Below are positions 1 to 20,786 of a stretch of DNA of 55,414 nucleotides, piece by piece. Position 1 is the stretch's first letter; every line of letters starts with the position of its first letter. The notes beneath the pieces are model-generated. The model saw only the letters and a list, made by a program, of their open reading frames with translations, had not been told where the DNA came from and did no database searches. The DNA lies in the NCBI GenBank assembly GCA_913020715.1, contig CAJVZH010000012.1, forward strand, positions 1 to 55,414. The letters run 5' to 3'. The translations under genes were made by a program, and so were the position numbers. Source of the stretch: an uncultured Gammaproteobacteria bacterium. Its GTDB lineage: Bacteria > Pseudomonadota > Gammaproteobacteria > PS1 > Pseudothioglobaceae.

Positions 1-531
1 GGCTATTTTGGTTGTGGTTTGATCGATGGTCCAAACGTCCACATTAAAGGCCGTGTTGGTTGGTCATGTGCAGAAAACATGATGGCTGGTACTGTTCTTA
101 TTGAAATGAATGCTGGTTCTACATTCGGCGCTGCTATTCGTGGTGGTGACCTTGTTTGTAGAGGTAGTGTTGGTGCACGTACTGGTATTGACCAAAAGGG
201 TGGCACGATCATCGTTGGTGGTAATACAGGTGCTTTCTCTGGCTTCATGATGCAGCGTGGTCGTATGATCGTTTGTGGTGATGCAGGAAGAAACTTAGGT
301 GACTCAATGTACGACGGCGTAATCTACGTTGGTGGTGAAGTTGAGGAGCTAGGTATTGACTGTGTTCCAGGTGAAATGACAGAACTAGATGTTCGTTACT
401 TATCTTCTAAGTTAGATTTGTATGGCATTAAGTCTCCAAATGGCGCTGAAAAAATGCACAAGTACGTTTCTGGCAAAATGCTTTGGAACTACGATAAGTT
501 AGAAGCTCATGAGAAGAAGGTAGCCCTTTAA
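1..531 (+). CDS. mgsB: N-methylglutamate synthase subunit B (GXGXG beta-helix), 5'-truncated
   Basis: The frame is open from base 1, so the 5' end lies outside the window. The visible 176 residues are a glycine-rich right-handed beta-helix with repeated G-x-x-G-x-G turns, the fold of the C-terminal (alpha-3) domain of glutamate synthase. Stand-alone proteins of this type are the B subunit of N-methylglutamate synthase (MgsB, also GlxC), which with MgsA and MgsC transfers methylamine onto glutamate in the cytoplasm. The next gene, 36 bases on, is the matching FMN subunit, which supports this over a fragment of GltB. A formylmethanofuran-dehydrogenase C-like protein has the same fold but would not have this partner. 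Confidence 0.85.
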   Translation, partial: GYFGCGLIDGPNVHIKGRVGWSCAENMMAGTVLIEMNAGSTFGAAIRGGDLVCRGSVGARTGIDQKGGTIIVGGNTGAFSGFMMQRGRMIVCGDAGRNLGDSMYDGVIYVGGEVEELGIDCVPGEMTELDVRYLSSKLDLYGIKSPNGAEKMHKYVSGKMLWNYDKLEAHEKKVAL

Positions 532-567: not shown

Positions 568-1908
568 ATGAGCAATCAAGTAGATGATACAGCCAAATTA
601 GGATCAAGTTTTATCTTCCCTAAAGAGGTTATGAATGATATTCATATCAAGTCTGATTTGGGTCGTTACAGAATGAGGGGTTTCTCTCTATTCAAAAAGA
701 TTCCAACTTGGGACGATTTGACATTTATGCCAGGCACCCTAACTCGCTTCATTATTGAGGGTTATAGAGAGAAATGTTTAACAAAAACAATCATTGGTCC
801 AAACGCCAAAGTACCACTTGAGCTAGACATCCCAGTCTACATCACAGGTATGAGTTTTGGAGCATTGAGCTATGAAGCGAAAACAGCCCTAGCACGTGGT
901 GCTACTATGGCTGGTACAGCGACGTGTTCTGGTGAAGGTGGTATGATTCCAGACGAGCGTCGTTACTCAAGCAAATGGTTCTACCAGTGTATTCAATCAC
1001 GTTACGGTTTTAACCCTAACCACTTACGTCTTGCTGACGCGATCGAGTTCTTCATTGGACAAGGTTGTAAAGTTGGTCTTGGTGGTCACTTAATGGGTCA
1101 AAAAGTAACAGACCAAGTAGCGGAAATGCGCTCACTACCTGCAGGTATTGACCAACGCTCTCCAGCACGTCACCCAGACTGGTTAGGTCCGGATGACTTG
1201 GCGCTTAAAATCGAAGAAATTCGTGAAGCGACAGACGGTCAGATTCCAATTCAGTTAAAACTAGGTGCTGCACGTGTATACGACGACGTTCGTATGGCTG
1301 CTAAAACCGGTTGTGACAGTATTTACATCGACGGTATGGAAGGTGGTACTGGTGCGGGTCCCCACCTTGCAACAGAAGAAACTGGCGTACCTGGTATTGC
1401 TGCGATTCGTCAAGCGCGTCAAGCGATTGAAGATGTTGGTATGGGTGGTGAAATCACTCTTATCTACGCTGGTGGTATCCGTAATGGTGGTGACGTAGCT
1501 AAAGCAGTTGCACTTGGTGCAGACGCGGTTGCGATTGGTCACTCAGCATTGATGGCACTTAACTGTAACAGAGACACTCCTGAAGCCGACTACGAAGGTG
1601 AAATGGGCGTTAGAGCTGGTGAATGTTATCACTGTCATACTGGCCGTTGTACGGTTGGTGTTGCAACGCAAGATCCTGAGCTTAGAAAGCGTCTAGACCC
1701 AGATCTAGCTGCTGAGCGTGTATTTAACTTCTTACACACACTAGCAATCGAGTGTCAAATGATGGCTCGTGCTTGTGGTAAGACTAATGTACACTCATTA
1801 GAGCCAGAAGATCTAGCTGCATTGACAATGGAAGCTTCAGCTTGTGCACAAGTACCTATCGCAGGTTCTCAGCACACGGTTGGTCGTCCAGACATGACAC
1901 GTTTTTAA
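568..1908 (+). CDS. mgsC: N-methylglutamate synthase subunit C (FMN, glutamate synthase-like)
   Basis: This 446-residue protein is a stand-alone glutamate synthase central domain: a TIM barrel for FMN with the typical M-S-F-G-A-L-S segment near residue 95, a G-x-A-R and glycine-rich phosphate-binding segment around residues 230-310, and a Cys cluster (ECYHCHTGRC) near residues 351-360 that fits the [3Fe-4S] site. This is the composition of MgsC/GlxD, the flavin subunit that makes N-methylglutamate from methylamine and glutamate. It starts with ATG after an AAGGAA ribosome-binding site and follows mgsB. A glutamate synthase of ammonium assimilation would be one large GltB polypeptide, so this is a specialised paralogue. 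Confidence 0.88.
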   Translation: MSNQVDDTAKLGSSFIFPKEVMNDIHIKSDLGRYRMRGFSLFKKIPTWDDLTFMPGTLTRFIIEGYREKCLTKTIIGPNAKVPLELDIPVYITGMSFGALSYEAKTALARGATMAGTATCSGEGGMIPDERRYSSKWFYQCIQSRYGFNPNHLRLADAIEFFIGQGCKVGLGGHLMGQKVTDQVAEMRSLPAGIDQRSPARHPDWLGPDDLALKIEEIREATDGQIPIQLKLGAARVYDDVRMAAKTGCDSIYIDGMEGGTGAGPHLATEETGVPGIAAIRQARQAIEDVGMGGEITLIYAGGIRNGGDVAKAVALGADAVAIGHSALMALNCNRDTPEADYEGEMGVRAGECYHCHTGRCTVGVATQDPELRKRLDPDLAAERVFNFLHTLAIECQMMARACGKTNVHSLEPEDLAALTMEASACAQVPIAGSQHTVGRPDMTRF

Positions 1909-1921: not shown

Positions 1922-2302
1922 ATGAGTACTGAAGAAAAGTTTATTGAGATTGACTCTCTAGATAAAAGCCATGAGGAAATGACAGGCCAGCATATCGGTT
2001 ATAGATATGATGTAAACCTTGTACCAGACCTTAACTTTATCACCCCGTTTTTGCAAGATTACATTGACGAAATGGGCTGGAAAGATCTTAATTGGTTGGA
2101 AGATGTTCATATGGGTTATGAAGCAGACCAAGCGGCTGTTTTTGATAGAAATATCAACGGCTGGGTTACGATTCCTGACACAATTGAACTTCCAAATAAC
2201 CAGCAAGAGCGTGACATGATTGCACGTGAACTGTTGATTAAGTTCCAAATGTCTGAAAACCATCCAATGGTTGACTTAAACGCAGCTTACCGTAAGTTCT
2301 AA
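1922..2302 (+). CDS. Small acidic protein of unknown function in the mgs operon
   Basis: I do not recognise this 126-residue protein. It is soluble and strongly acidic, rich in Asp, Glu and aromatic residues, with no signal peptide, transmembrane segment or cysteine pattern. It begins 13 bases after mgsC behind a strong AAAGGAGAT ribosome-binding site, and a hairpin terminator follows it, so it is the last gene of the mgs operon. That position suggests an accessory or assembly factor for N-methylglutamate synthase, or a small regulator of methylamine flux. No catalytic motif is visible. The reading frame, codon use and ribosome-binding site make it a real gene. Confidence 0.75.
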   Translation: MSTEEKFIEIDSLDKSHEEMTGQHIGYRYDVNLVPDLNFITPFLQDYIDEMGWKDLNWLEDVHMGYEADQAAVFDRNINGWVTIPDTIELPNNQQERDMIARELLIKFQMSENHPMVDLNAAYRKF

Positions 2303-2375
2303 GGTAAGTGAGTTTTTAGGGAACGTGAAGAGGTTGTTTGACTTGCTCAAGTAACTTCTTCTCCCCTTAGTTTGG

Positions 2376-2402: not shown

Positions 2403-2412
2403 TTATAACTAA

Positions 2413-2976: not shown

Positions 2977-3050
2977 CAGTAACTAAAGATAGAAGCAGTA
3001 TAAATAGAGTAAGACAAGTAATCTTTAACCGACCTTAAAAATTATTTAGA

Positions 3051-5351
3051 ATGAGAGTAACAGAAATTAAATACGCAGAAAACTGTGAAACGTACCAAAT
3101 TCACGGTGGAGAAGCGGTTTTAATTGATCTCCAGATTGGCGATCAAGTTGAAATTATTGATGTTGAAGGCGACCAAAAATGTAGTGTTTTGGCGTTTGAC
3201 ACAAAAGGCAGTTCCGCAATTAATTCACTTAATTGGGAAAGCGCACCAAATTCAAAACAATCATCATTCGTTTATGATGATTCTTCAAATATGCTTAAGG
3301 CAATTCTTAAGTTTAATAAAATCGACACAGACTCAACGGATACAGCAGAATTATTTGCAGATTTGTCTCCGTCTGATTCCAGACAAAATTTTCAAGTTGA
3401 TGCAGACACGTTATGCGTTTTTGATGCTAAAGGTGGCGTGATGCCTGTAGATCAGCAGTCGACGCCAACGGAAATATTGATTAATGTCACTCGCGCAAAT
3501 CCGAAAAGCATTGAAGATCGTTTGCCAGAACCTCTGGCTAAGCCACTCCAAGATTTTAGAGTTGCTCACAGCTCGGCCAAATCGTACACAGTTGAAGCCG
3601 GTCAATACATTCAAATCATTGACGTTCAAGGGCAGCAATGTTCAGATTTTCAAGCTTTTTCAGTTGAGGATTTAAAAAATGGCGTAGAGTTAACACTTGA
3701 TCCAACCGTTACAAGATCGTTAATGTTGTCAAGTTACCCAGCCCCTGGTGTGCATGATAAATTTTATAATCAAAATTCAGAGCCGTATATTGAAGTGATT
3801 CGCGACACAGTTTGCAGGCACGACACATTTGGCTTGGCTTGTAATTCTAAATACTACGACGATCGTGGCTACCCAGGCCATATTAGTTGTACTGAGAACT
3901 TTAATCGGACATTGAGTGAACATGGTATTGCGGCGCGTAAGAATTGGGTTGCTGTCAATTTCTTTTTTAACACCAATATTTTAGAGTGCCATACATTGGA
4001 TTCAGATGTTTCATGGTCGCGGGCGGGGGATTCTGTCCTACTTCGTGCGGTAACGGATTTAGTCTGCGTTTCATCGGCTTGTCCTGATGACACTTCTCCA
4101 GCTAACAACTGGAACCCAACGGACATCCACGTCAGAGTTTATGATGCGGATAATAATTTTTCCCAAGGTATCGATTTTAGACCCGATCCACAAACCATAC
4201 CGACTATGACTAAAGAAACAGGATTTCACAAAAATACCTCTAAATTAACGAGGAATTTCACAGAATACAATGGCTACTGGTTGGCACTTGATTACACCAA
4301 CTTGGGTCAAATCAAAGAATATTGGCAGTGCCGTGAAGGTGTTGCAATGATTGATCTTTCCCCTTTGAGAAAATTCGAAATTTATGGCCCTGATGCTGAA
4401 GTGTTGTGTCAATATGCAATTACCAAAGACGTTCGCAAAATGGCGATTGGCCAAGTTGTCTACACGGCAATGTGCTATGAAAATGGCTGCATGATTGATG
4501 ACGGAACCTTGTTCAGGCTTTGTGAAAATAACTTCCGCTGGGTTGGTGGTTGTGGAAGTGGCGGTAAATACCTTCGCAAAATTGCCGAAGAGAAGGGTTT
4601 GAATGCGTTCGTTAAGTCATCGACCGATCAATTACAAAACGTCGCTGTACAGGGGCCTAAGAGTCGCGATACGTTAAGAAAGATTATTTGGACCGCAAAA
4701 ACACAAACAACCGTAGATGAATTGAAGTGGTTTAGATTTACTTTTGCTCGTATTGGTGGCGAATTTGGTATTCCAATTATGCTATCTCGTACCGGTTACT
4801 CTGGTGAACTCGGCTATGAAGTATTTGCCCATCCGGATGACTGTGAGGCGGTTTGGAATGCAATTGCAGAGGCAGGTGAAGAATTTGACATTTGCCCAGT
4901 AGGCCTTAATGCACTTGACATGCTACGTATTGAAGCGGGCTTGATATTTGCTGGCTACGAATTTTGTGATCAAACTGATCCGTTTGAGGCAGGCATTGGC
5001 TTTGCCGTTCCATTGAAGACCAAAGAGGATGATTTTTCCGGTAAAGAAGCATTAATGCTCCGTAAGAATTCTCCACAGAGGGCTCTTGTTGGGTTAGAAT
5101 TAGCTAAAAATGAAGTTGCAACACCAGGAGATGGTGTGTATATTGGCAAGCAACAAGTAGGACACATTACAAGCGCAACACGTTCACCGATACTTAAAAA
5201 GAACATTGCCTTGTGCCGAATTACTACTACAGCATCCGAGATTGGAACTGCAGTTGAAGTGGGCAAATTAGATGGACATCATAAAAGGTTAGAAGCAACA
5301 GTTGTGCGCTTTCCGTTTTATGACCCTGAGAAGACTAGAGTTAGAATGTAG
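3051..5351 (+). CDS. tdm: Trimethylamine N-oxide demethylase (DUF1989 + GcvT fusion)
   Basis: This 766-residue cytoplasmic protein joins DUF1989-type sequence (about residues 15-150 and a fuller copy at 175-370) to a C-terminal GcvT-like tetrahydrofolate domain (about 395-766, with the acidic pair in CMIDDG at 480-485 and the SRTGYSGELGYE signature near 579). That order and length are those of Tdm, which splits TMAO to dimethylamine and formaldehyde. The second DUF1989 copy holds C264, H277, C280 and C344, a set suited to the Zn site of this family; the first copy lacks most of it. It stands directly upstream of a betaine/TMAO-type importer and after the mgs genes, which supports the call. 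The ATG at 3051 has only a weak ribosome-binding site. Carboxyguanidine deiminases share DUF1989 but lack the GcvT half. Confidence 0.85.
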   Translation: MRVTEIKYAENCETYQIHGGEAVLIDLQIGDQVEIIDVEGDQKCSVLAFDTKGSSAINSLNWESAPNSKQSSFVYDDSSNMLKAILKFNKIDTDSTDTAELFADLSPSDSRQNFQVDADTLCVFDAKGGVMPVDQQSTPTEILINVTRANPKSIEDRLPEPLAKPLQDFRVAHSSAKSYTVEAGQYIQIIDVQGQQCSDFQAFSVEDLKNGVELTLDPTVTRSLMLSSYPAPGVHDKFYNQNSEPYIEVIRDTVCRHDTFGLACNSKYYDDRGYPGHISCTENFNRTLSEHGIAARKNWVAVNFFFNTNILECHTLDSDVSWSRAGDSVLLRAVTDLVCVSSACPDDTSPANNWNPTDIHVRVYDADNNFSQGIDFRPDPQTIPTMTKETGFHKNTSKLTRNFTEYNGYWLALDYTNLGQIKEYWQCREGVAMIDLSPLRKFEIYGPDAEVLCQYAITKDVRKMAIGQVVYTAMCYENGCMIDDGTLFRLCENNFRWVGGCGSGGKYLRKIAEEKGLNAFVKSSTDQLQNVAVQGPKSRDTLRKIIWTAKTQTTVDELKWFRFTFARIGGEFGIPIMLSRTGYSGELGYEVFAHPDDCEAVWNAIAEAGEEFDICPVGLNALDMLRIEAGLIFAGYEFCDQTDPFEAGIGFAVPLKTKEDDFSGKEALMLRKNSPQRALVGLELAKNEVATPGDGVYIGKQQVGHITSATRSPILKKNIALCRITTTASEIGTAVEVGKLDGHHKRLEATVVRFPFYDPEKTRVRM

Positions 5352-5516
5352 TGCTAGTCCTCCGGGAAAGAAACATTCTTAGACGTAACTAAATCTAAGA
5401 TTGTGGGAGTGGTTTTTTTGGCAATTTTGCCGGAACAACCGCATTAACAGTTGGTTTTATTAGCTTTCTCGTTATTGAGAAAATATAAAAACCAATGAAC
5501 TATAAAGGAGAAATAA

Positions 5517-6455
5517 ATGAACAAGTTCACTTCTAAAGCGGCTGTTGCTGCTTTAACAATGACTTTGGCTTCTGTCTCAGGTCAGTCTCTAGCTGACTCA
5601 AGCGAGCCAATTAAAATTCCAACTCATAACTGGTCAAGCCAAGTTGTAATGGCTTACGTTATTGGTGGTATTTTTGAAAGCATGGGCAATAACGTAGAAT
5701 ACGTTTCTGCAGACTCTCAAGGTGTATACGAAGCGATTCGTCTTGGAGATGTTACTATCTCTCATGAAGTATGGCAGTCAAGCTTTGGTGCGTCATTCTA
5801 CAATGCAATGGCAAAAGGCGGTCTAATTGACGCTGGTACTCACGCTGCTCCAACTCTTGAAGAGATGGGTGTACCTACTTGGGTTATCGATCAAAACTTA
5901 TGCCCAGGCCTTCCTGCATGGGAAGCTCTAGCAGACTGTGCTGAAGTATTCGCTACAGCAGATTCTGGTGGTAAAGGTCGTTGGTTAGAGGGTCCACAAT
6001 CATGGCACGGTGACTTGATGCCTGAGCGTATTGACGCACTTGGTCTAGGTGATAGCTATGTTGTTAAGTTTGCTGGTGGTGCTGATGCGCTATGGGCTGA
6101 ACTTGCTTCTGCTAAAGCTGAAGGTCGTGGTACTATCATCTTTAACTGGACGCCTAACTTCACGGATGCTGAAGGTTTCACATTCATCGAGTTCCCTGAG
6201 TACACAGATGGTTGTCGTACTGTAGACGGTGGTGATGGTTCTTGTGGTTCACCGAAAGGTTGGTTGAAGAAAGCTGCTAACGCAGACTTCCCTAATACCC
6301 ACCCAGCTGCATACACTGCGTTTAGCAAGATGTCATTCACAACTACAGACATCGGTCAAATGGCTGCTCTAGTTGACATCGAAAAGATGGATCATCAAGC
6401 TGCTGCTAAACAGTGGTTAGCCGATCATGAAGACGTGTGGAGCGCTTTCTTATAA
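5517..6455 (+). CDS. tmoX: Periplasmic TMAO/betaine-binding protein of ABC importer
   Basis: The 312-residue protein starts with a signal peptide (about residues 1-26, ending SGQSLA before DSSEP) and continues as an OpuAC-type quaternary-amine binding protein. It is rich in tryptophan (HNW, VWQ, PTW, RWLEG, SWHG), which fits a Trp cage for a trimethylammonium or N-oxide group. The family covers glycine betaine, choline and TMAO binders. Its position 165 bases after tdm and ahead of matching ATPase and permease genes makes TMAO the best guess (TmoX), with glycine betaine or choline as alternatives. The ribosome-binding site AAAGGAG is strong. A hairpin follows the gene and would raise its level above that of the membrane parts. 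Confidence 0.8.
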   Translation: MNKFTSKAAVAALTMTLASVSGQSLADSSEPIKIPTHNWSSQVVMAYVIGGIFESMGNNVEYVSADSQGVYEAIRLGDVTISHEVWQSSFGASFYNAMAKGGLIDAGTHAAPTLEEMGVPTWVIDQNLCPGLPAWEALADCAEVFATADSGGKGRWLEGPQSWHGDLMPERIDALGLGDSYVVKFAGGADALWAELASAKAEGRGTIIFNWTPNFTDAEGFTFIEFPEYTDGCRTVDGGDGSCGSPKGWLKKAANADFPNTHPAAYTAFSKMSFTTTDIGQMAALVDIEKMDHQAAAKQWLADHEDVWSAFL

Positions 6456-6510
6456 AGAAAGAATAGATGCCGATATTCTTGTGCTTTGAGTGCAAGAATG
6501 TTTACTCGGT

Positions 6511-6561
6511 ACCCTAACCCCTTGGGTCTTATCTAAGCTTGAGGGGTTTAGGGTATTTTTT
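6511..6561 (+). terminator. Hairpin attenuator between binding-protein and ATPase genes
   Basis: ACCCTAACCCCT pairs with AGGGGTTTAGGGT with one bulged base, followed by a run of seven T. It lies inside the importer operon, so partial read-through is expected. Confidence 0.75.
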
Positions 6562-6615
6562 TAGATGTTTGTAAGTGCATATATTTTGCAATAAAGTATA
6601 TTTTAGGAAGTAATT

Positions 6616-7674
6616 ATGTCTGTTCAAAATCAAGCCGTCATTAAGTGCGATTCAGTTTATAAAATCTTTGGCGAGAGTGCCGACCAAATGCTAAAGGACT
6701 CAGGTGGTAATGTTGATGCTTCAGAGTTTCAAAAAGCAGGCTGCGTCGTCGGTGTAAATGATGCCTCCTTCGAGGTTGAAAAAGGGGAGATGCTTGTTAT
6801 TATGGGCCTTTCTGGTTCTGGAAAGTCAACCCTTCTTCGCTGTATTTCAAGATTAACAGACGCCACTGCCGGTAATATTTATATCGATGGTGATGATGTT
6901 ACAACAATGAACGAAAAGGAGTTGATTGAACTCCGTAGAAACAAAATGGGTATGGTATTTCAGAGTTTTGCCTTATTACCCCATAAAACCGTAATAGAAA
7001 ACATCGCCTTTCCTTTGCAAGTTAAAGGCAGTAGTTTAAAAAATAGCATGCAGAGAGCAATGGACATGGTTGAGCTTGTTGGCTTAACTGGTCGTGAGAA
7101 TTATTTCCCAAGAGAGTTGTCGGGTGGTCAGCAGCAACGTGTTGGTATTGCACGTTCACTAGCAGTTGAACCAGATATTTGGTTCTTAGATGAGCCATTC
7201 TCAGCACTCGATCCTCTGATTCGTAAAGAAATGCAGGATGAGTTTTTAAGACTTCAGGCAGTACTAAACAAAACGATTCTATTTGTTACACACGACTTCG
7301 ATGAGGCAATTCGTCTTGCTGATCGTGTTGCGATTATGAAGGATGGTATTATTGAACAGCTTGATACCCCGGCAAACATTGTACTAAATCCGGCAACTGA
7401 ATACGTTCGTAAATTTACCGAAGAAGTGCCAAGAGAGAAGGTGCTTAAAATTCAATCAGTGATGGATCCTGTGGATAGTGAAGCTGATCTTAGTGATCTT
7501 AAGGTTTCTGCTGATGCAATCATTGAAACCGTTGCAGAAGCTGTTTTGAGTGAAGAAAAGGCTGTTGCTGTTGTTGACGAGAATGATAACGTTGTTGGTC
7601 TACTGCATAGAGATAAAGTCATTCACGTGCTGTTTGGTAAGAGCGCCTCACTTGAGAGTAACACCCAAAGGTAG
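6616..7674 (+). CDS. tmoW: ABC importer ATPase, glycine betaine/TMAO type
   Basis: This 352-residue ProV/OpuAA-type ATPase has Walker A GLSGSGKST near residue 64, the Q-loop VFQSFALLPH, the signature LSGGQQQR near 170, Walker B WFLDEPFSALDP near 190 and the switch His in VTHDFDEA. A long N-terminal lead (residues 1-45) and a C-terminal tail with a CBS-like half (about 280-345) are typical of quaternary-amine importers, where CBS modules sense ionic strength; here only a short version is present. It would power the doubled permease encoded five bases downstream. I use the tmo name because of the neighbouring tdm, and the exact V/W letter assignment should be checked. Confidence 0.8.
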   Translation: MSVQNQAVIKCDSVYKIFGESADQMLKDSGGNVDASEFQKAGCVVGVNDASFEVEKGEMLVIMGLSGSGKSTLLRCISRLTDATAGNIYIDGDDVTTMNEKELIELRRNKMGMVFQSFALLPHKTVIENIAFPLQVKGSSLKNSMQRAMDMVELVGLTGRENYFPRELSGGQQQRVGIARSLAVEPDIWFLDEPFSALDPLIRKEMQDEFLRLQAVLNKTILFVTHDFDEAIRLADRVAIMKDGIIEQLDTPANIVLNPATEYVRKFTEEVPREKVLKIQSVMDPVDSEADLSDLKVSADAIIETVAEAVLSEEKAVAVVDENDNVVGLLHRDKVIHVLFGKSASLESNTQR

Positions 7675-7679
7675 AAAAT

Positions 7680-10214
7680 ATGAGTTATTTAAATTATTTA
7701 ACTGAACGCCCTAAGTTATTACAGTTTGGCCTTATCTTAATTGTTTTCTTTCTGCTAGTCTCAATGACTGGAGAGTATCACGATTTAATGATTGAGCGCG
7801 ATAGTTTCGCTAAAGCCGTTAAAAAAGGACATATTGAGGATTCAGTTGGTTTTGTTGAGTCAATTAGAATGATCTTTAGTTGGCAGCTACCACCTCAATT
7901 GGTAAGGGTGCCTGAAATACCATTTTGGACTCCTGCTGTAAGCACTTCTTTTGTATATTGGCTAGTTGCTATCGTGGCGTCTACTGCTCTTTTGTACAGT
8001 AGCTATACTAGGTCAAGTGATCAAAGAAATTGGTTTGCAAATAATTGGGGGCAGTTTTTCTCTAAAGGTTTTTTTGGTATTTTGATAGGTTTGATTCTTG
8101 CTCCAACACTGGCTTATTGGTTGTTCTCTGACGAAATTACCACCACCACTTTTTGGGAGCTCCCAGGTCTCATTCATGAGCTTGGCCAATTTCTGATGTT
8201 TGACTTTTTGTTGGTTGATCATTGGAATGCAAGAGGTCAGAAATACGATGAATGGGCTTTAGTAAGAGTTATCACTAGATCGCTCGCCGACGGCCTTCAG
8301 TTCCTGATAACTTTCCTTCGTGAAATCATGATGGGCGGTTTTAAGACAATCGTTAATGTAGCCGCCTGGTTCTCCGATACCGGTAGTGGTTGGGACTGGA
8401 TGGGCAAGCACAAGGGGAGCTGGTATGCAAGCATTCCTGCATTGCCTTGGACGGTTCTTACTGCCGGCTCGTTTCTGTTGGGCTACAGACTTAAGGGCTT
8501 CGGTCTTTCAATGTTGGCGGGCTTTGGTTGTTTTTACTTGCTAATCTTTGGCCAGTGGGAGCCAGCGATGGAAACGCTGTCGTTCATTCTTATTGCTGCA
8601 CCAATTTCAGGTATTTTGGGTGTTATTTGGGGTGTCTTGGCTTACAAGAGCAAAGGGGTTGAAAAAGCGATAACGCCTTTGTTAAATGTTGCGCAAACAA
8701 TGCCACACTTCTCTTACTTGGTGCCTGTAATCGTGTTCTTTGGCTTGGGCGACCATGCGGGTGCTATTGCGACAATCATTTTTGCCACACCGCCAATGGT
8801 TCGTCTGACACTTTTGGGCCTTAAAAAGGTTTCACCAGAGGTTTTAGAGGCTGGTCAAATGAGTGGTTGTACTAATTTCCAGTTATTGTTCAAAGTTCTA
8901 ATTCCAACAGCCCGATACGATATCTTAATTGGCGTTAACCAGGTAATAATGCAGTGTTTGGCAATGGCTGTTATTGCATCACTAATTGGTGCCAAGGGAC
9001 TTGGCTTTAACCTTCTCTTGGCTCTAAACCAACTTAGGATTGGCCAAGCTCTAGAGTTGGGTGTATGTATTGTTGTTATTGCCGTAGTCTTGGACAGGTT
9101 ATCTCTTGCTTGGGCAAATAAACAAAAAGATTATTTTGCCGACTTGAGTTTTGTTGAACGTCACAAAACAGGCTTTCTTTTTGCGGCCATCTTCTTTTTT
9201 GCTTGCCTTTTGGCTTGGGTCGGTCAAGAAATGGTTGGTGGTACTTTCTTTGGCTTCCTTGATGGTGTGATCGATAGTATTCGCCTTGGTTTGGCGGGTG
9301 TTTTTGATATAACCATTCGCCCAATTAAGCACGGCGTTACAAACTATTTTTCTCTAGTCCCTCATAATATGGGCATTACTACCGAGCCATTTTGGCAGGG
9401 CGGCGTTAACTGGATGGTGAGTAACTGGACAACAGATATCAAAATATTCAACAAGTGGTTATTACAGGAAGTATTAATGCCAATGAAGGGAGGCTTCCTT
9501 GCAATGCCTGTTGTTGCAACCTTTGTCTTGTTTGCTGGTGTGAGTTATATTATTGGCGGTATTCGCTCAGCATTAGTAATCACTGGTTTCTTAACCTTTA
9601 TTGCTCTGACCGAGTGGTGGGAAAGGGCGCTAATTACAATGTACATGGCAACATTTGCAGTAGTTGTTTCAGTAATTCTTGGTACAATTGTTGGTGCAGT
9701 TGCGGTCCAGAATAAGCGTGCCACAAAATTTATTTTGCTAGTTTGTGATACCTTTCAAGTATTGCCATCGTTTATTTATTTGATTCCTGTAATCATGTTG
9801 TTTGGAATTAATGACACTGCCGTTTTGATTGCGGTGATGGTTTATGCGGTTATTCCGCCAACTCGCTACACGATTGAGGGTTTGCGCAGTGTCCCGGAAT
9901 CATTAGTTGATGCCGGTCATATGTCCGGTGCAACCAAGTTACAAAGAATGGTTAAGATTGAATTTCCATTGGCTTTCCCGCATATTATGCTGGGTGTTAA
10001 CCAGTGTGTCGCCTTTGCACTCTTCATGATCATTATCGGTGCCTTTATTGGTACCGATGATTTGGGTCAGTTTATCCTAGGTGCATTGTCACACAAAGAA
10101 GGTATTGGTGTTGGCTTGATGCTGGGTATTTGTGTGGCCTTTATTGGTCTTGCGGTTGATCATCTTATCCAGGTTTGGTCTAAGAAAAGAAAAGAGGAGT
10201 TAGGTATCGCTTAA
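7680..10214 (+). CDS. tmoV: Tandem-duplicated permease of TMAO/betaine ABC importer
   Basis: At 844 residues this is about three times a usual ProW permease. It contains two separate BPD-type transmembrane modules: an EAA loop of the form EAGQMSGCTNFQ near residue 390 and a second, DAGHMSGATKLQ, near residue 743, each followed by an INxxxP-like helix. About 90-300 residues of extra membrane and linker sequence precede each module. One polypeptide could therefore supply both membrane halves of the importer. It starts five bases after the ATPase gene and is translationally coupled to it. TMAO is the likely substrate from context, betaine the alternative. A strong hairpin terminator follows. Confidence 0.82.
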   Translation: MSYLNYLTERPKLLQFGLILIVFFLLVSMTGEYHDLMIERDSFAKAVKKGHIEDSVGFVESIRMIFSWQLPPQLVRVPEIPFWTPAVSTSFVYWLVAIVASTALLYSSYTRSSDQRNWFANNWGQFFSKGFFGILIGLILAPTLAYWLFSDEITTTTFWELPGLIHELGQFLMFDFLLVDHWNARGQKYDEWALVRVITRSLADGLQFLITFLREIMMGGFKTIVNVAAWFSDTGSGWDWMGKHKGSWYASIPALPWTVLTAGSFLLGYRLKGFGLSMLAGFGCFYLLIFGQWEPAMETLSFILIAAPISGILGVIWGVLAYKSKGVEKAITPLLNVAQTMPHFSYLVPVIVFFGLGDHAGAIATIIFATPPMVRLTLLGLKKVSPEVLEAGQMSGCTNFQLLFKVLIPTARYDILIGVNQVIMQCLAMAVIASLIGAKGLGFNLLLALNQLRIGQALELGVCIVVIAVVLDRLSLAWANKQKDYFADLSFVERHKTGFLFAAIFFFACLLAWVGQEMVGGTFFGFLDGVIDSIRLGLAGVFDITIRPIKHGVTNYFSLVPHNMGITTEPFWQGGVNWMVSNWTTDIKIFNKWLLQEVLMPMKGGFLAMPVVATFVLFAGVSYIIGGIRSALVITGFLTFIALTEWWERALITMYMATFAVVVSVILGTIVGAVAVQNKRATKFILLVCDTFQVLPSFIYLIPVIMLFGINDTAVLIAVMVYAVIPPTRYTIEGLRSVPESLVDAGHMSGATKLQRMVKIEFPLAFPHIMLGVNQCVAFALFMIIIGAFIGTDDLGQFILGALSHKEGIGVGLMLGICVAFIGLAVDHLIQVWSKKRKEELGIA

Positions 10215-10232
10215 CTTTTCTAAAGACTTAAA

Positions 10233-10265
10233 TAAACGTGGCGCATGTATCATGCGCCACGTTTA
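10233..10265. terminator. Bidirectional terminator between tmoV and the aldehyde dehydrogenase gene
   Basis: A perfect 15-bp stem (arms 10233-10247 and 10251-10265, core ACGTGGCGCATG) with a three-base loop lies between two converging genes and serves both. Confidence 0.85.
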
Positions 10266-10298
10266 ATTTTGAGCATTAAAAGGTTGTTAGAAAAGCCT

Positions 10299-14303: not shown

Positions 14304-15650
14304 ATGTCATTACCAAGTCAAGCCGAATACGTTATCATCGGTGCCGGTATCCACGGTTTATCAACAGCATGGCGTTTAGCCGAAAATTTAACGGCAGCAG
14401 GCGAAAGCATTGATGGTCGTATCGTTATTATTGACAAAGCTGGCGAGATTGCAGCGGGTGCTACAGGTATCGCTTGTGGTGTTGTTCGTAACAACTACTT
14501 CCAACCAGCAATGCGTAAATTAATGGCGCATTCAGTAAGTGTTTGGGAAAGCGATCCAGAGGCGTTCAGCTACCACGCAAACGGCTACATGCAAATTTCT
14601 TGTGAAAGCATGCGTGAAGACGTAAAGCAAATTCACAAAGAGCAACAAGCCATCGGTTACGAAAGTGTTTTCATTGAAGGTGAAGAAGAGTCACGTGAAT
14701 ACATGCTTAACATGTTTGATGACTGGCAAGCGCAAGGCATTACTTCGGTTCTTCATGAGAAGCCAGGTGGTTATGCAAACAACGTCAAAGCAATGGAAGG
14801 CCTTTCTAAGAAAGTTCTTGCGCTGGGCGTAACTATTGTTCTTGACACTGAAGTAACAGGTTTTGTTTCTGCAGGCGAGGGTCAAAAAGTGACAGCAGTT
14901 GAGACAAGCAATGGCACAATCGCATGTGATAAATTAGTTATCGGTGCAGGTCCATGGGTTCGTGACTTCTGGACAATGCTTGGCCTACCTTCACAAATTG
15001 AGCTAAAAGACTTAGACGGTAACGTTCATGAAAACGTTGACATGTGGGTTTTCTGGCAGCTTGAAGAAGGTGTTCTTGAAATTCCACCTGAAACTTTAGT
15101 TACTAACGACGGTAAAGTTCCACCAGTATTGCACGTTGATACTGATGCGCCTTTGTACTCGACTGTTGATGGTTCATTGATTACTGATCAATTATGGGGT
15201 ATTTACTACAAGCCGGATTGGGGCTTTGGTGGCATTCAAGGTGGCGCAGCCCCTTGGAAAGTTCCTACGCCAGTAGACGAAGTAGCAATCGACCCTTACG
15301 GTCCAGCAAGCACAGAATTTGTTGCCTCTAAAGAATTCCCTGAAATGTGGGTTTCTGCACTAGCGCATTGTCATAAGCGTTTCGAAGGCACAATGGACAG
15401 TTACCATAAAGAGGCTTCAGGCGGTATTGGTTGTATGACTGCTGACAGCTTCCCAGTTGTTGATACTTATAACGAAAACGTAACAATTATTGCTGACTCT
15501 AACCATGGCTATAAAATGCTAGGTGTTGGTTGTTTAGTTGCTGAAGAATTGTTGGGCGAGAAGCAAGAGCTTCTTGAGCCATTCAGATTCTCTCGCTTTA
15601 AAGAGGGTAAATTACACCCAGTATCAAACAGCCCTTATCCTTGGAGTTAA
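14304..15650 (+). CDS. FAD-dependent oxidoreductase (DAO family), amine-oxidising
   Basis: This 448-residue flavoprotein opens with a dinucleotide-binding fold (YVIIGAGIHGLSTAWRLAE, residues 10-28) and closes with the glycine-rich segment around the FAD ribityl chain (DSNHGYKMLGVGCLVAEELL) of the D-amino-acid oxidase/SoxB family. It has no GcvT domain. The next gene, a SoxB paralogue, begins three bases downstream, so both are made together. It probably oxidises an N-methylated amine such as dimethylglycine, handing formaldehyde to the downstream complex. Low similarity to the neighbouring SoxB and a longer mid-section argue against simple duplication. The ATG is preceded by AGGAG. The substrate is unproven. 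Confidence 0.8.
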   Translation: MSLPSQAEYVIIGAGIHGLSTAWRLAENLTAAGESIDGRIVIIDKAGEIAAGATGIACGVVRNNYFQPAMRKLMAHSVSVWESDPEAFSYHANGYMQISCESMREDVKQIHKEQQAIGYESVFIEGEEESREYMLNMFDDWQAQGITSVLHEKPGGYANNVKAMEGLSKKVLALGVTIVLDTEVTGFVSAGEGQKVTAVETSNGTIACDKLVIGAGPWVRDFWTMLGLPSQIELKDLDGNVHENVDMWVFWQLEEGVLEIPPETLVTNDGKVPPVLHVDTDAPLYSTVDGSLITDQLWGIYYKPDWGFGGIQGGAAPWKVPTPVDEVAIDPYGPASTEFVASKEFPEMWVSALAHCHKRFEGTMDSYHKEASGGIGCMTADSFPVVDTYNENVTIIADSNHGYKMLGVGCLVAEELLGEKQELLEPFRFSRFKEGKLHPVSNSPYPWS

Positions 15651-15653: not shown

Positions 15654-16916
15654 GTGAGCAAGACAAAGTATTCTGCCTTCAAAGTCTTGAAAGAGGCTTT
15701 GACGGGGCACAAAGGTTGGGAGCCTGCTTGGCGTGATGCTGAGCCTAAGGCTGACGGCTATGACGTTATTATTGTAGGTGGTGGTGGCCATGGTTTGGCG
15801 ACCGCTTATTATTTGGCAAAAAATCACGGTATTACTAATATAGCCGTACTTGAAAAAGGCTGGATTGGTGGCGGTAATGTTGGTAGAAATACCACCATTA
15901 TTCGTTCAAACTACCTTTTGCCAGGTAACGAGCCTTTTTACGAGATGTCTATGCAGTTGTGGGAGAATCTTGAACAAGATTTGAACTACAACGCAATGGT
16001 ATCTCAACGTGGAATTATGAACTTAATTCACTCGGATGCTCAACGTGACGCCTTTATGCGTCGTGGTAACGCAATGTTATTTGCGGATGCCGGTTGTGAG
16101 TACTTGAACAAAAAAGAAGTTAAGGAAAGATACCCTTTCCTTGATATGGACAATGCTCGCTTCCCAATTCAGGGTGCGTTAGCACAACCTCGTGGTGGTA
16201 CGGTTCGTCACGATGCCGTAGCTTGGGGTTATGCTCGTGGTGCGAGTGATCTTGGTGTTGATATTATCCAAAACTGTGAAGTTACTGGTTTTAATATCGA
16301 GAACGGCAAGTGTCTAGGTGTTCAAACAACAAAAGGCGATATTAAAGCTGGCCGTGTTGGTGTTTGTGTTGCTGGTTCGTCAAGTCGCGTAATGGCTAAA
16401 GCGGGTATTAACTTGCCAATCGAATCTCATGTATTGCAAGCATTCGTAACTGAAGGCCTTAAGCCTGTTATGGACAACGTTATAACATTTGGCGCGGGTC
16501 ACTTCTACTGTTCACAGTCTGACAAAGGCGGCCTCGTCTTTGGCGGTGATATCGATGCATACAACACTTATGCGCAACGTGGTAACTTACCTGTTGTGGA
16601 AGATGTGTGTTCTGGCGGTATGGCGATTATGCCTATGGTTGGTCGTGTTAGATTGTTGCGTATGTGGGGCGGTATCATGGACATGTCTATGGACGGCTCA
16701 CCGTTTATTGACAAGACTGACGTTCAAGAATTGTTCTTTAATGGCGGCTGGTGTTATGGCGGCTTTAAGGCAACACCTGCCAGTGGTTATTGTTATGCGC
16801 ATTTATTGGCAACCGACGAGCCTCATGAAGTTGCAACAGCTTTCCGTCTAGATCGCTTCAGACGCGGCGAAATGATTGATGAGAAGGGTGTTGGCGCACA
16901 ACCCAACCTACATTAG
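15654..16916 (+). CDS. soxB: Sarcosine oxidase / N-methylglutamate dehydrogenase beta subunit
   Basis: The 420-residue protein has an FAD-binding fold (VIIVGGGGHGLATAYYLA, about residues 40-57) and the motif GGTVRHDAVAWG with H186 in the place of the His that holds FMN covalently in heterotetrameric sarcosine oxidase. It is the catalytic amine-oxidising subunit of a SoxBDAG-type complex, which either oxidises sarcosine to glycine or, as MgdA, N-methylglutamate to glutamate. The two enzymes cannot be told apart by sequence at this level. The mgs genes at the left end and the betaine-type genes nearby leave both possible. The start is GTG, three bases after the preceding stop. Confidence 0.82.
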   Translation: MSKTKYSAFKVLKEALTGHKGWEPAWRDAEPKADGYDVIIVGGGGHGLATAYYLAKNHGITNIAVLEKGWIGGGNVGRNTTIIRSNYLLPGNEPFYEMSMQLWENLEQDLNYNAMVSQRGIMNLIHSDAQRDAFMRRGNAMLFADAGCEYLNKKEVKERYPFLDMDNARFPIQGALAQPRGGTVRHDAVAWGYARGASDLGVDIIQNCEVTGFNIENGKCLGVQTTKGDIKAGRVGVCVAGSSSRVMAKAGINLPIESHVLQAFVTEGLKPVMDNVITFGAGHFYCSQSDKGGLVFGGDIDAYNTYAQRGNLPVVEDVCSGGMAIMPMVGRVRLLRMWGGIMDMSMDGSPFIDKTDVQELFFNGGWCYGGFKATPASGYCYAHLLATDEPHEVATAFRLDRFRRGEMIDEKGVGAQPNLH

Positions 16917-16927: not shown

Positions 16928-17218
16928 ATGATAATAAACCATCCGTTGTTAGGTCCTCGTGATTCTGAGGAGTTTGTTTATTTAGGATCTGCTGATCTTA
17001 TCAATAGACCAACAAACTGGGAATCTGAAGAAGCCGCTGAAGACTTCTATCAGTACCTATACATTAGAGAAAATATTGCTGGTGACAACCGTGAACTTTG
17101 GTACCACGAACAAGGTGACCAATCTTGGTTAGTTGTTACTCGCTGTACTTTAACACATGAGATTAAAAGTGTTGAGCTTGCTCAAGACGTCTCAAGAGCA
17201 CAGGGTCGATCAAAATGA
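16928..17218 (+). CDS. soxD: Sarcosine oxidase / NMG dehydrogenase delta subunit, zinc ligands lost
   Basis: This 96-residue protein matches SoxD/MgdB in position, length and the segments GPRDSEEFVYLG, INRPTNW and THEI. In the family the N-terminus reads C-P-x-C-G and a later segment H-x2-G-C, which together bind Zn. Here they read HPLLG (residues 5-9) and HEQGD, so all three ligand cysteines are gone while the His is kept. The subunit may fold without metal or use His5. It overlaps soxA by four bases (ATGA), so translation is coupled. Confidence 0.8.
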   Translation: MIINHPLLGPRDSEEFVYLGSADLINRPTNWESEEAAEDFYQYLYIRENIAGDNRELWYHEQGDQSWLVVTRCTLTHEIKSVELAQDVSRAQGRSK

Positions 17219-20178
17219 GTCAAATTAACAGAATCGATGGCGGTCTAATTGACCAAACTAAATCTGTAAGCTTTACTTTCAATGGCCAAATTTTACGAGG
17301 TTATGAAGGTGACACGCTTGCTTCTGCGTTGCTTGCAAATAACAAGCATTTAGTAGGACGCTCGTTCAAATACCACCGTCCACGTGGTATCGTAACAGCG
17401 GGTTCAGAAGAGCCAAATGCCATCATGGAAATCGGTCACGGCGCTTACAAAGAGCCAAATACACGTGCTACGATTACACAATTATATAACGGCTTAGAAG
17501 CCAACTCTCAAAACCATAGAGGTCCTCTAGGCTTCGACTTTATGGCAATTACGGATTTCTTCTCGCCATTCCTAAGTGCAGGTTTTTACTACAAGACCTT
17601 CATGTGGCCAAAAGCCTTTTGGGAAAAATTTTATGAGCCGGCAATTCGTCATTCTGCTGGACTGGGTAAGCTTTCTATGTTGGAAGATCCAGACACTTAT
17701 GATAAGGGCTTCCGCTACTGCGATATCTTGATCATTGGTGCGGGTGCTTCTGGTTTGTCTGCTGCACTGACAGCTGCCGAATCTGGTGCTAGAGTTATTC
17801 TTGCTGACGAAGATTTCATCATGGGTGGTCGATTAAATTCGGAAACTAATGAAATTAACGGCATGTCTGGCAGTGAGTGGGCCAAGCAAGCGGTTGCAAA
17901 ACTATCTGCGATGGACAACGTCACGCTAATGGCTGACACGACTATTTTCGGTGCTTATGACCACGGTATTTACGGTGCGATTGAAAACAGAGCAGACGAG
18001 GCGAGAGCCGATAGCAATAAGCCACGTCAAGTAAACTGGCGCATATACACAAAACGTACGATTCTTTGTGCGGGTGCAACGGAAAGAGCTATTGCCTTTG
18101 GTAATAACGATCGTCCAGGCATTATGATGGCGAGTGCTGTTAGAACGTATCTAAACAGATTTGCGGTTGCAACCGGTCAAAGCGTTAGTGTTTACACAAA
18201 CAATGACGACGGTTGGCAAACAGCGAAAGATTTGACTGATAAAGGCGTGAAAGTTGTAGCGGTGATTGATTCACGCTCAATTGATCCAGTGATGGCAATT
18301 GAAGGTGCTGAGATCTTTATGGGTACAGATGTTACCGATACTAAGGGTCGTAGAGCTATCAAGTCAATTACGCTTTCAAATGGCAAGACAATCAATACAG
18401 ACACACTAGCCGTTTCTGGCGGTTGGAATCCAAACCTTCATTTGACGTGTCACCATCGTGGCATTCCTAAGTGGAATGAAGAGCTTGCAACATTCTTGCC
18501 AGATTCTTCAGTACCTGTTGGTATGTCAGTTGCTGGTCGTGCTAAAGGCACAATGGTATTGGCGGACGCAATTGTTGAGGGCCATAACGAAGGCTCTTCT
18601 GTTGCAGCAGATCTTGGTTTTAAAACTGGCGATTCTAAGCCAGCTACGACAGCTTCAGTTGCTTACAACGTTAGTGCAAAATGGGGCGTTCCAAGCGGCA
18701 AAAACCGCGCTTGGGTTGACTATCAAAACGACGTAACGGCGAAAGATATTAAGCTTGCTAATCAGGAGGGCTTTAAATCGGTTGAACACGTTAAGCGTTA
18801 CACAACACTTGGTATGGCAACAGACCAAGGAAAAACAGCAAACGTTCTTGCGATTGGCATTATGGCTGATAACATGGACAAATCAATTGAAGATACTGGT
18901 ACAACGATTTTCCGCCCACCATACAACCCAGTTGCAATGGGTGCGTTTGCGGGCAGAAGACGTGGAATGGAGTTCTATCCAACGCGCTATACACCGAGTC
19001 ACAAATGGTCTGCTGAGCAGAACGCTATTTTTGTTGAAGTTGGCATGTGGTATCGTTCGCAGTGGTTCCCTCAACCAGGTGAAACTTTCTGGCGTGATTC
19101 AGTGGATCGTGAAGTTAGGCAAACACGTGAATCTGTGGGTATCTGTGACGTAACAACGCTGGGCAAGATTGATATAAAAGGTGCTGATGTTTCTGAATTC
19201 CTAAACAGACTTTACGTTAACGCTTTTGCCAAAGTGCCAGTCGGCAAAACACGTTACGGTCTAATGCTTCGTGAAGACGGCATAGCAATGGATGATGGCA
19301 CAACAGCAAGACTTGGTGAGAATCATTTTGTAATGACAACGACTACTGCGAATGCGGTCAGTGTTTATCGTCATATGCAATTCTGTCATCAGTGTCTATG
19401 GCCTGATTTAGATGTCCATATGATTTCTGTTACTGAGCAGTATGCACAGTACGCAGTTGCGGGGCCAAACTCTCGTAAACTACTGCAGAAAATTGTTGAC
19501 GCTGAGCACGATATTTCGAATGAAGCGTTCCCTTATATGGGTGCTGGTGAAATTTCAATTTGTGGCGGCATTCCTGCAAGGCTTTTCAGAATCTCATTCT
19601 CGGGTGAGCTTGCTTATGAAATCGCTGTTCCTACGCGTTACGGTGATTCACTGATTCGTGTTCTTATGGAAGCGGGTGAAGAGTTTAATGCAATCCCTTA
19701 CGGTACGGAAGCACTGGGTGCGATGCGTATCGAGAAAGGTCACGCGGCGGGTCCTGAGCTTAACGGTCAAACAAGTGCTTACGACCTTGGTATGGGTGGT
19801 ATGGTTTCAGGTAAGAAAGACTTTATTGGTTACACACTTGGTCTACGTGAAGGTATGCAGCGCGATGATCGTATGCAAATGGTTGGTTTCAAGCCGGTTA
19901 ATAAAGGCGCCTTATTGGATGCAGGTCATTCAATGGCTGGTGCACACTTAGTTAACTTGCGCGATAAGCCAGATACGTTTACCGATCAAGGTTGGATTTC
20001 ATCGTCTATCTATTCGCCAATATTTGGTCATTACATTGGCCTAGGTTACATTAAAGGCGGACACAGCCGTAAAGGTGAGACGGTCCGTGCAGTTGATTTA
20101 GTAAGAGGTCAAGATATCGAGGTTGAAATTTGTAGCCCACACTTCTATGATCCAGAAGGGGAGTGTCTACGTGTTTAA
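17215..20178 (+). CDS. soxA: Sarcosine oxidase / NMG dehydrogenase alpha subunit
   Basis: The 987-residue subunit has the three expected parts: an N-terminal Fer2-like domain (about 10-110, ending in SFKYHRPRGIVTAG), an NAD-binding fold (DILIIGAGASGLSAALTAAE, about residues 171-190, plus FAD-reductase-like sequence to about 480) and a C-terminal GcvT-like folate domain (about 600-987). The folate domain would capture formaldehyde as methylene-tetrahydrofolate. This is SoxA or MgdC in a heterotetramer with SoxB, SoxD and SoxG. Its length agrees with both families. It starts at an ATG overlapping the soxD stop. Confidence 0.88.
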   Translation: MSQINRIDGGLIDQTKSVSFTFNGQILRGYEGDTLASALLANNKHLVGRSFKYHRPRGIVTAGSEEPNAIMEIGHGAYKEPNTRATITQLYNGLEANSQNHRGPLGFDFMAITDFFSPFLSAGFYYKTFMWPKAFWEKFYEPAIRHSAGLGKLSMLEDPDTYDKGFRYCDILIIGAGASGLSAALTAAESGARVILADEDFIMGGRLNSETNEINGMSGSEWAKQAVAKLSAMDNVTLMADTTIFGAYDHGIYGAIENRADEARADSNKPRQVNWRIYTKRTILCAGATERAIAFGNNDRPGIMMASAVRTYLNRFAVATGQSVSVYTNNDDGWQTAKDLTDKGVKVVAVIDSRSIDPVMAIEGAEIFMGTDVTDTKGRRAIKSITLSNGKTINTDTLAVSGGWNPNLHLTCHHRGIPKWNEELATFLPDSSVPVGMSVAGRAKGTMVLADAIVEGHNEGSSVAADLGFKTGDSKPATTASVAYNVSAKWGVPSGKNRAWVDYQNDVTAKDIKLANQEGFKSVEHVKRYTTLGMATDQGKTANVLAIGIMADNMDKSIEDTGTTIFRPPYNPVAMGAFAGRRRGMEFYPTRYTPSHKWSAEQNAIFVEVGMWYRSQWFPQPGETFWRDSVDREVRQTRESVGICDVTTLGKIDIKGADVSEFLNRLYVNAFAKVPVGKTRYGLMLREDGIAMDDGTTARLGENHFVMTTTTANAVSVYRHMQFCHQCLWPDLDVHMISVTEQYAQYAVAGPNSRKLLQKIVDAEHDISNEAFPYMGAGEISICGGIPARLFRISFSGELAYEIAVPTRYGDSLIRVLMEAGEEFNAIPYGTEALGAMRIEKGHAAGPELNGQTSAYDLGMGGMVSGKKDFIGYTLGLREGMQRDDRMQMVGFKPVNKGALLDAGHSMAGAHLVNLRDKPDTFTDQGWISSSIYSPIFGHYIGLGYIKGGHSRKGETVRAVDLVRGQDIEVEICSPHFYDPEGECLRV

Positions 20179-20213
20179 TAATACTCCCTTTGACAAAACT
20201 TCAGGAGAAGCCC

Positions 20214-20786
20214 ATGTCTGATTATACAATGGTAAAAGAGTCGCCACTTGGTGGTGCTGAACATGAGTTCGATGGTGTCACTGTCTCAGAGGTAGTTGAT
20301 CAATCGTTAGTCATGATTGCTATGCCAAATGGCGAAGCTGAAAATATCGAAGCGGCAATGAATAAGGCTTGTGGTTTGTCTGTCCCTGCAATGGGTCAGT
20401 CGACGCAGTCTTCGGACGGTTCGGTTACGCTTTGGCGCTTGCAAAAAAACCAAGTAATGGCTTATTATGCTTACGAAGGTGACGATGCTGAGGCAAACAT
20501 TGCCGAGCGTATCGATGCACCATCTGCTTACTACACAGATCAGTCTGATACTTGGGCAATGATTCGTGTTAGTGGTGAGCGCAGTCGTGATATTCTTGAG
20601 CGTATTTGCCCAATCGATCTAGATCCTAACGTCTTTACATTGGGTAGTGTTTCAAGAACGATTATGGAGCACATCGGAACAGTCATCTACAGAGACGGTG
20701 ATGATTCATACGTGTTGTTAACTATGCGTTCGTTTGGACGCTCTATGTTGCACGCGATTGAAGTGTCGGTTGAGAACGTTTTGTAA
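20214..20786 (+). CDS. soxG: Sarcosine oxidase / NMG dehydrogenase gamma subunit
   Basis: The 190-residue product is the small GcvT-like gamma subunit. The folded part carries the segment TWAMIRVSGERSRDILERIC and a C-terminal FGRSMLHAIE typical of SoxG. I place the start at ATG 20214, eight bases after AGGAG, not at the upstream GTG at 20163, whose extension overlaps soxA and has no ribosome-binding site. It closes the five-gene operon from 14304, and a strong terminator follows. Confidence 0.85.
   Translation: MSDYTMVKESPLGGAEHEFDGVTVSEVVDQSLVMIAMPNGEAENIEAAMNKACGLSVPAMGQSTQSSDGSVTLWRLQKNQVMAYYAYEGDDAEANIAERIDAPSAYYTDQSDTWAMIRVSGERSRDILERICPIDLDPNVFTLGSVSRTIMEHIGTVIYRDGDDSYVLLTMRSFGRSMLHAIEVSVENVL

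Follow-up and report, generated by a model that had tools for sequence, protein, structure and literature searches.

A gene set paralogous to N-methylglutamate synthase accompanies the trimethylamine N-oxide demethylase gene of a Thioglobus-like gammaproteobacterium and is a candidate for the dimethylamine step

Introduction

The closest described systems to the locus studied here are the trimethylamine N-oxide (TMAO) importer TmoXWV with the TMAO demethylase Tdm, known from Ruegeria pomeroyi, Methylocella silvestris and SAR11; the dimethylamine monooxygenase Dmm of R. pomeroyi (PMC5520151); and the N-methylglutamate pathway GmaS–MgsABC–MgdABCD, as on the Aminobacter plasmid pMET1. Here, a stretch of 55,414 nucleotides (contig CAJVZH010000012.1 of assembly GCA_913020715.1; hereafter the window, contig C12) was analysed from a Candidatus Thioglobus-like gammaproteobacterium (genome G000; 1,553,307 bases, 26 contigs, completeness 94.69). 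In this window, tdm and tmoXWV lie beside part of a gene set, termed set b, that is predicted to be paralogous to the N-methylglutamate synthase genes. Set b accompanied tdm in most of the tdm genomes sampled, and we consider the chances evenly balanced that it stands in for dimethylamine monooxygenase after TmoXWV and Tdm.

Dimethylamine has been argued to be a bottleneck where dmmDABC is missing, as it is in SAR11 and in abundant marine Gammaproteobacteria, and has been linked to marine aerosol amines in PMC5520151, which also already mentions Ca. Thioglobus singularis-related sequences of tmm and tdm. SAR11 strain HTCC1062, which is without dmm, grows on TMAO as sole nitrogen source, much more weakly than on ammonium, and the study that reports this proposes an isoenzyme of DmmDABC (PMC8918994). 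In SAR11, glxBCD has been named as a putative N-methylglutamate synthase and glnT as a putative GmaS, while SAR11_1304 has been described as a monomeric sarcosine oxidase beside the aminomethyltransferase gene SAR11_1303, possibly for unknown substrates (PMC3160333).

Results

A preliminary description of this stretch took the two genes that open it for the mgsBC of an ordinary N-methylglutamate operon. Both genes belong instead to a separate set, as placed for the flavin mononucleotide (FMN) subunit by a tree. In locus L046, tdm is flanked by gmaS with mgsABC (set a) and by a second ligase–amidotransferase–GXGXG–FMN–p126 run (set b, its ligase frame broken by masked bases), and of these two copies the window mgsC shares 88% identity with b and 51% with a. 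Maximum-likelihood analysis of 47 FMN subunits, which took every second of 59 set b rows, separated clade a (12 rows, one of them a duplicate; support 100/99) from clade b (30 rows including the window protein; 97/90), with a third, longer type, c, as a clade of its own. The motif C-x2-C-x4-C (C353, C356 and C361 in the window), whose cysteines presumably bind an iron–sulphur cluster as in glutamate synthase, was counted by alignment in 59/59 set b proteins versus 2/11 set a proteins. The two set a subunits that keep these cysteines (L128:2220 and L149:9851), gone in the other nine, suggest that the loss may postdate the origin of set a. The sets coexist in other genomes, lying side by side in L046, L128, L149 and L150. 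The order amidotransferase–GXGXG–FMN subunit is that of canonical MgsABC; the window FMN subunit falls into clade b and not into the clade beside GmaS/glnT, and the accompanying ligase on contig C15 (492-amino-acid frame) matches the GmaS family TIGR03105 in two pieces of 153 and 146 bits, below the cut-off of 469.6. The window mgsBC is thus to be relabelled as the paralogous set b, a sister clade to canonical N-methylglutamate synthase. As a separate observation, the clade c synthases (652–654 amino acids) occur in L058, L064, L065, L094 and L118, in the first three with an amidotransferase beside tmm and in L118 with an amidotransferase beside amtB and a cupin regulator.

In Alphaproteobacteria, SAR11 among them, and in the gammaproteobacterial locus L042, set b usually runs in the order fadox, gs_b, gat_b, gx_b, mgsC_b, p126; in L046 and the actinobacterial L050, fadox stands elsewhere within the run, and some loci are without a gene. 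In our genome, contig C15 closes with the ligase, the amidotransferase and the opening 105 codons of gx_b, and the window starts inside gx_b, with a 5-base overlap between the two contigs and a fitting frame. A helix–turn–helix cupin regulator precedes the ligase on C15; regulators of the same family (40–44% identity) were also seen in dmm/gmaS clusters (L138, L141, L143 and L106), which hints at shared control of dmm/gmaS and gs_b. For p126, neither a Pfam nor an NCBIfam match was obtained, and its model (predicted local distance difference test score, pLDDT, 70) gave no fold match in the PDB at E≤0.001. The gene fadox lies apart from mgsC_b here and heads an mgdABCD operon (14304–20786), an operon that the preliminary description did not name.

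The ligase gs_b keeps K30, Y147, Q175, D177, E179, E186, N188, W300 and R312 (Rhodovulum GmaS numbering; PMC7948447) in 50/50 proteins and has V and W where glutamine synthetase carries its ammonia-binding Asp and flap Glu. As these two residues are absent in 50/50, an ordinary glutamine synthetase was set aside. Its residues identify it as a predicted GmaS-type ligase joining an amine rather than ammonia to glutamate. Compared with the genome's own GmaS, gs_b shows the invariant changes Y174I, N176G, G231A and A48V; I174 and G176 replace Y and N next to the base D177, and it is our guess that they make room for a second methyl group.

The structural model of fadox, a flavin adenine dinucleotide (FAD) amine oxidase-like protein, has a mean pLDDT of 81, and in the PDB it comes closest to the folds of sarcosine oxidase beta subunits, L-proline dehydrogenase, monomeric sarcosine oxidase and dimethylglycine oxidase/dehydrogenase. 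An alignment of 22 sequences shows R62 and K404 without variation; among a larger group of sequences, the motif N-x-G-x-K was kept in 34/34 and the exact string VRNNY in 28/34. By analogy with sarcosine oxidase, we take R62 and K404 to be carboxylate anchors, which would favour an N-methylated amino acid over free dimethylamine as the substrate. The sox-like operon behind fadox is by similarity the N-methylglutamate dehydrogenase MgdABCD, since mgdA is 71% identical to the SoxB-like protein of the Aminobacter pMET1 operon (amidotransferase–GXGXG–FMN–glnT–sox) versus 53% to the genome's other SoxB, and mgdC 52% to the corresponding pMET1 operon protein versus 37% to the other SoxA. A SoxB-type subunit, not necessarily that of Mgd, was present in all 38 alphaproteobacterial set b genomes introduced below.

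The distribution of set b was followed in two samples. Fifty tdm genomes were picked by Tdm similarity from 80 fetched tdm loci, those left out being for the most part Thioglobus, SAR11 and Acidimicrobiia loci similar to the retained ones, and 385 alphaproteobacterial genomes were drawn evenly, in which tdm was called at E≤1e-150, set b at an identity of at least 76%, with a clean gap to set a at ≤56%, and set a by an identity of 50–56% with the mgsC of the window rather than by tree placement. Set b was found in 47/50 tdm genomes (as fragments in G020, G044 and G050) and not in G026, G031 and G045. Among the 385 Alphaproteobacteria, 34 carried tdm (29 over the cut-off), 38 carried set b and 27 both; set b was thus present in 27/34 genomes with tdm versus 11/351 without it (Fisher p 2e-26, relatedness uncorrected). 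In 14 of these 27, set b and tdm share a contig and are no more than 25 kb apart. In the flanks fetched for the 80 tdm loci (≤10 kb, often cut by contig ends), mgsC_b at >70% identity was seen in 41 and any set b label in 49, the gat_b and gx_b labels there being unfiltered by identity. The link between tdm and set b is well supported. The seven tdm Alphaproteobacteria without set b are G072, G209, G302, G309, G333, G360 and G385, of which G072 and G385 have Tdm-like proteins below the cut-off.

Dimethylamine monooxygenase was traced through PF11927, which we take to mark a Dmm subunit; its neighbours gmaS, mgsABC, tmm or tdm in G026, G302, G333 and G360 support this use. PF11927 matched in 7/50 tdm genomes and 48/385 Alphaproteobacteria, 14 of these being tdm genomes. 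Dmm clusters lay at the matches of five tdm genomes (G026, G209, G302, G333 and G360; one of two matches was read in G026, G209 and G360), all without set b. The labels dmmA–D were assigned in G026 by Pfam family, size and order rather than from the R. pomeroyi sequences, and their letters may differ from the published ones. In the other nine tdm genomes, no further dmm subunit was found near the match (the contig ends there in G031), and in G023 and G042 the neighbours, named by eye, are gyrase and ruvABC. The matches in tdm genomes with set b were rejected as Dmm, no dmm cluster having been seen at those read. When both samples were pooled (83 genomes, G030 counted once), dmm clusters were present in 0/73 tdm genomes with set b versus 5/10 without it (p 9e-6); in the alphaproteobacterial tdm genomes by themselves, the counts were 0/27 versus 4/7 (p 8e-4), and raw PF11927 matches 1/27 versus 6/7.

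In the source genome (94.7% complete), PF11927 had no match, and the preliminary description's view that dimethylamine monooxygenase is missing holds as far as tested. A search of the rest of the genome, which it had proposed, found gmaS on contig C11 (662 bits; cut-off 469.6) and tmm on contig C13 (812 bits; cut-off 675). A search for a second MgsC-like gene gave nothing nearer than a GltB-type protein, the other match being weak. In the near relative G009 (mgsC 99% identical), set a mgsABC lies between gmaS and a second glutamine synthetase-like gene (L145), and in our genome these two genes are only 48 bases apart, so that the canonical set looks truly absent at the gmaS site. On C11 (L019:5006–10340), gmaS stands behind the second glutamine synthetase-like gene, which is without D177, and another Rieske oxygenase gene precedes them; further neighbours, judged by eye, are an AsnC/Lrp-like regulator, a cupin and a glyoxalase-like protein.

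The tdm gene and a complete tmoXWV-type importer (substrate-binding protein, ATPase and double permease) were found where the preliminary description had placed them. Its assignment of the DUF1989–GcvT fusion to Tdm was borne out: the protein (DUF1989, GCV_T and GCV_T_C in Pfam) passes the NCBIfam model NF053776 for TMAO demethylase (1113.8 bits; cut-off 1100), and its top PDB match is the TMAO demethylase 9q59 (835 bits, residues 9–765). The residues that it had listed as a Zn site (C264, H277, C280 and C344) are all present, although the published assignment puts H277 with D347, which is present too, into a proposed Fe site. These residues equal C263, C279 and C343 (Zn) and H276 and D346 (proposed Fe site) of M. 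silvestris Tdm (PMC12560246) with an offset of one position. TmoX matches PDB 4xz6, the R. pomeroyi TmoX (PMC8918994), at 295 bits, the runner-up reaching 24 bits, and W39, W86, F90, E115, W163, F209 and W211 match all seven cage residues given in that source. With this score difference and the intact TMAO cage, an importer for glycine betaine or choline was set aside; a choline side activity is possible, because SAR11 TmoX also binds choline (dissociation constant 2.5 uM; PMC8918994). The tdm–tmoXWV block is a real system of an already-known kind, with predicted activity towards TMAO. Among named genomes, the closest tdm loci are of Ca. Thioglobus/SUP05 types (top, L043, 91%).

Features of the window are listed in Table 1. 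The 748-base gap at 2303–3050 between p126 and tdm holds no open reading frame of at least 100 amino acids; the gap is about 200–300 bases in the relatives L031, L034, L023 and L036 and about 4 kb, with other genes, in L042. A promoter and terminator scan of 1900–7700 gave no informative signal (19 promoter-like sites versus 13.7 expected; two terminator-like sites versus 4.4). At 29103–30194 lies a stand-alone GcvT-like protein (233 bits, GcvT cut-off 300; 208 bits to the Tdm model), a putative aminomethyltransferase.

Table 1. Coordinates of set b, TMAO and N-methylglutamate dehydrogenase genes in the window
Feature	Position	Strand	Basis
gx_b, GXGXG subunit of set b	1..531	+	Pfam GXGXG 47 bits; 5' part cut by contig start
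mgsC_b, FMN glutamate-synthase-like subunit of set b	568..1908	+	Pfam Glu_synthase 307 bits; clade b
p126, conserved 126-amino-acid protein closing the set b run	1922..2302	+	Aligned with 21 homologues
tdm, predicted TMAO demethylase, 766 amino acids	3051..5351	+	NCBIfam, Pfam, PDB match, metal residues
tmoX, predicted TMAO-binding protein	5517..6455	+	PDB 4xz6 295 bits; cage residues kept
tmoW, importer ATPase	6616..7674	+	NCBIfam proV family, 344 bits (cut-off 326.6)
tmoV, permease with two transport domains	7680..10214	+	BPD_transp_1, two stretches
fadox, FAD amine oxidase-like enzyme of set b	14304..15650	+	Pfam DAO 105 bits; 3 bases upstream of mgdA
mgdA (SoxB-like), putative N-methylglutamate dehydrogenase subunit	15654..16916	+	71% to Aminobacter pMET1 SoxB-like protein
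mgdB (SoxD)	16928..17218	+	Pfam SoxD 88 bits
mgdC (SoxA-like)	17215..20178	+	52% to Aminobacter pMET1 operon protein
mgdD (SoxG-like)	20163..20786	+	Pfam SoxG 21 bits, at gathering score; operon position

Discussion

The preliminary description had seen the dimethylamine gap, and the present results suggest that the neighbouring set b fills it. A role of set b in dimethylamine use is the reading of gene anatomy and distribution that is best supported, at roughly an even chance, and the exact chemistry is less likely. We infer the following route. After uptake by TmoXWV, Tdm would convert TMAO to dimethylamine and a one-carbon unit, and gs_b, encoded on the other contig, would join dimethylamine to glutamate, giving gamma-glutamyl-dimethylamide. 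The amidotransferase/GXGXG/FMN complex would free the amine and add it reductively to 2-oxoglutarate, giving N,N-dimethylglutamate, from which fadox would take off one methyl group to leave N-methylglutamate, and MgdABCD would take off the second to leave glutamate. That set b is such an undescribed, oxygenase-free pathway via gamma-glutamyl-dimethylamide and N,N-dimethylglutamate, without free methylamine, and that it replaces dimethylamine monooxygenase in SAR11, SUP05/Thioglobus, Acidimicrobiia and other marine lineages, is put forward tentatively, at somewhat below an even chance. The sarcosine/dimethylglycine oxidase fold of fadox counts for this route. The growth of HTCC1062 on TMAO without dmm counts for set b as the way by which dimethylamine is used. 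GmaS over the cut-off is missing in 8/38 alphaproteobacterial set b genomes, five of them with tdm, which is what a route without free methylamine as an intermediate would predict.

Several observations weigh against this reading. Those genomes without GmaS may be incomplete. Across all 385 Alphaproteobacteria, PF11927 occurs in 1/38 genomes with set b versus 47/347 without it (p 0.07), which is below chance but unclear, so that the mutual exclusion of set b and dmm is confined to tdm genomes, with five dmm clusters as its basis. Half of the ten tdm genomes without set b are also without a dmm cluster, two of these five having Tdm-like proteins below the cut-off. Set a, too, is associated with tdm (18/34 versus 36/351, p 1e-8) and with PF11927 (p 9e-6). 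Rhodovulum GmaS is poor with dimethylamine (Michaelis constant 16 mM; PMC7948447), the proposed route gives p126 no part, and no published assay of a set b enzyme on dimethylamine was found. A literature search judged by titles and abstract openings, with most subscription journals and bioRxiv outside its coverage, found no glutamate-linked dimethylamine route.

Set b might instead be an alternative N-methylglutamate synthase for methylamine that works together with GmaS, with gs_b as a second GmaS, fadox as a single-chain N-methylglutamate oxidase, and dimethylamine handled otherwise or excreted. Sun et al. (2011; PMC3160333) proposed SAR11 glxBCD (1313–1315) as N-methylglutamate synthase, the GmaS pocket is kept in gs_b, and both our genome and SAR11 have gmaS without a set a mgsC, so that the set b synthase may serve, perhaps only, as an ordinary N-methylglutamate synthase, a further point against a dimethylamine role. 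However, 19/38 alphaproteobacterial set b genomes also carry a set a-identity mgsC, above expectation (p 1e-8), and the two sets stand side by side in the four loci named above, so set b is not a mere substitute for set a. The set b genomes without GmaS speak against a route via free methylamine, and neither the strength of the tdm link nor the absence of dmm clusters would be explained. We regard this alternative as unlikely. That set b handles another N-methyl or small alkyl amine, its company with tdm reflecting a shared marine osmolyte diet, would accommodate the 11/38 alphaproteobacterial set b genomes without tdm, which also count against a dimethylamine role, but not the closeness of the two loci in 14 of the 27 genomes with both or the absence of set b from all five genomes with dmm clusters, and it appears improbable.

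A different candidate for dimethylamine demethylation, which would leave set b another role, is the block on the minus strand at 10299–13916, in which an aldehyde dehydrogenase, a GbcA-like Rieske oxygenase and a GcvA-type LysR regulator are encoded. The Rieske gene recurs in 12/80 fetched tdm loci, all of Thioglobus/SUP05 type, and its similarity to GbcA is weak (112 bits; cut-off 670). However, the tdm loci fetched from SAR11 and the other lineages did not show it (flanks ≤10 kb, often cut), and the window neighbours at 7680–20786 include no reductase gene. A demethylase of this kind seems highly improbable to us, and set b is the preferred candidate for the dimethylamine step.

Set b offers a concrete six-gene candidate for the dimethylamine step of dmm-less SAR11. 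If it does use dimethylamine, metagenome estimates that count dimethylamine consumers by dmm alone overlook a large part of the community, and a different name is needed for those set b genes labelled N-methylglutamate synthase. We take SAR11_1303 to be tdm and, from description and gene order, SAR11_1313–1316 (glxBCD and glnT) with SAR11_1304 to be the SAR11 set b, which was read in the single-amplified genome loci L095, L099 and L102, not in HTCC1062 itself. This differs from the 2011 naming of SAR11 glnT as GmaS: in L095 and L099, the gene nearest to GmaS follows amtB downstream, and its counterpart in G257, where the order is alike, passes the GmaS cut-off.

Set b is proposed for the same step after Tdm as Dmm of R. 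pomeroyi (PMC5520151), and it differs from Dmm in that PF11927 is absent from our genome and that the PF11927 matches of tdm genomes with set b lie in no dmm cluster. The TmoXWV–Tdm block agrees with those of R. pomeroyi, M. silvestris and SAR11 in gene content, Tdm family score, metal residues and TmoX cage, with no notable difference. With the N-methylglutamate pathway GmaS–MgsABC–MgdABCD of Aminobacter pMET1, set b shares the order amidotransferase–GXGXG–FMN synthase, a glutamine synthetase-type ligase and an Mgd-like dehydrogenase, and it is set apart by the separate clade of its FMN subunit, the conserved cysteines (59/59 versus 2/11), a different ligase, and the extra genes fadox and p126.

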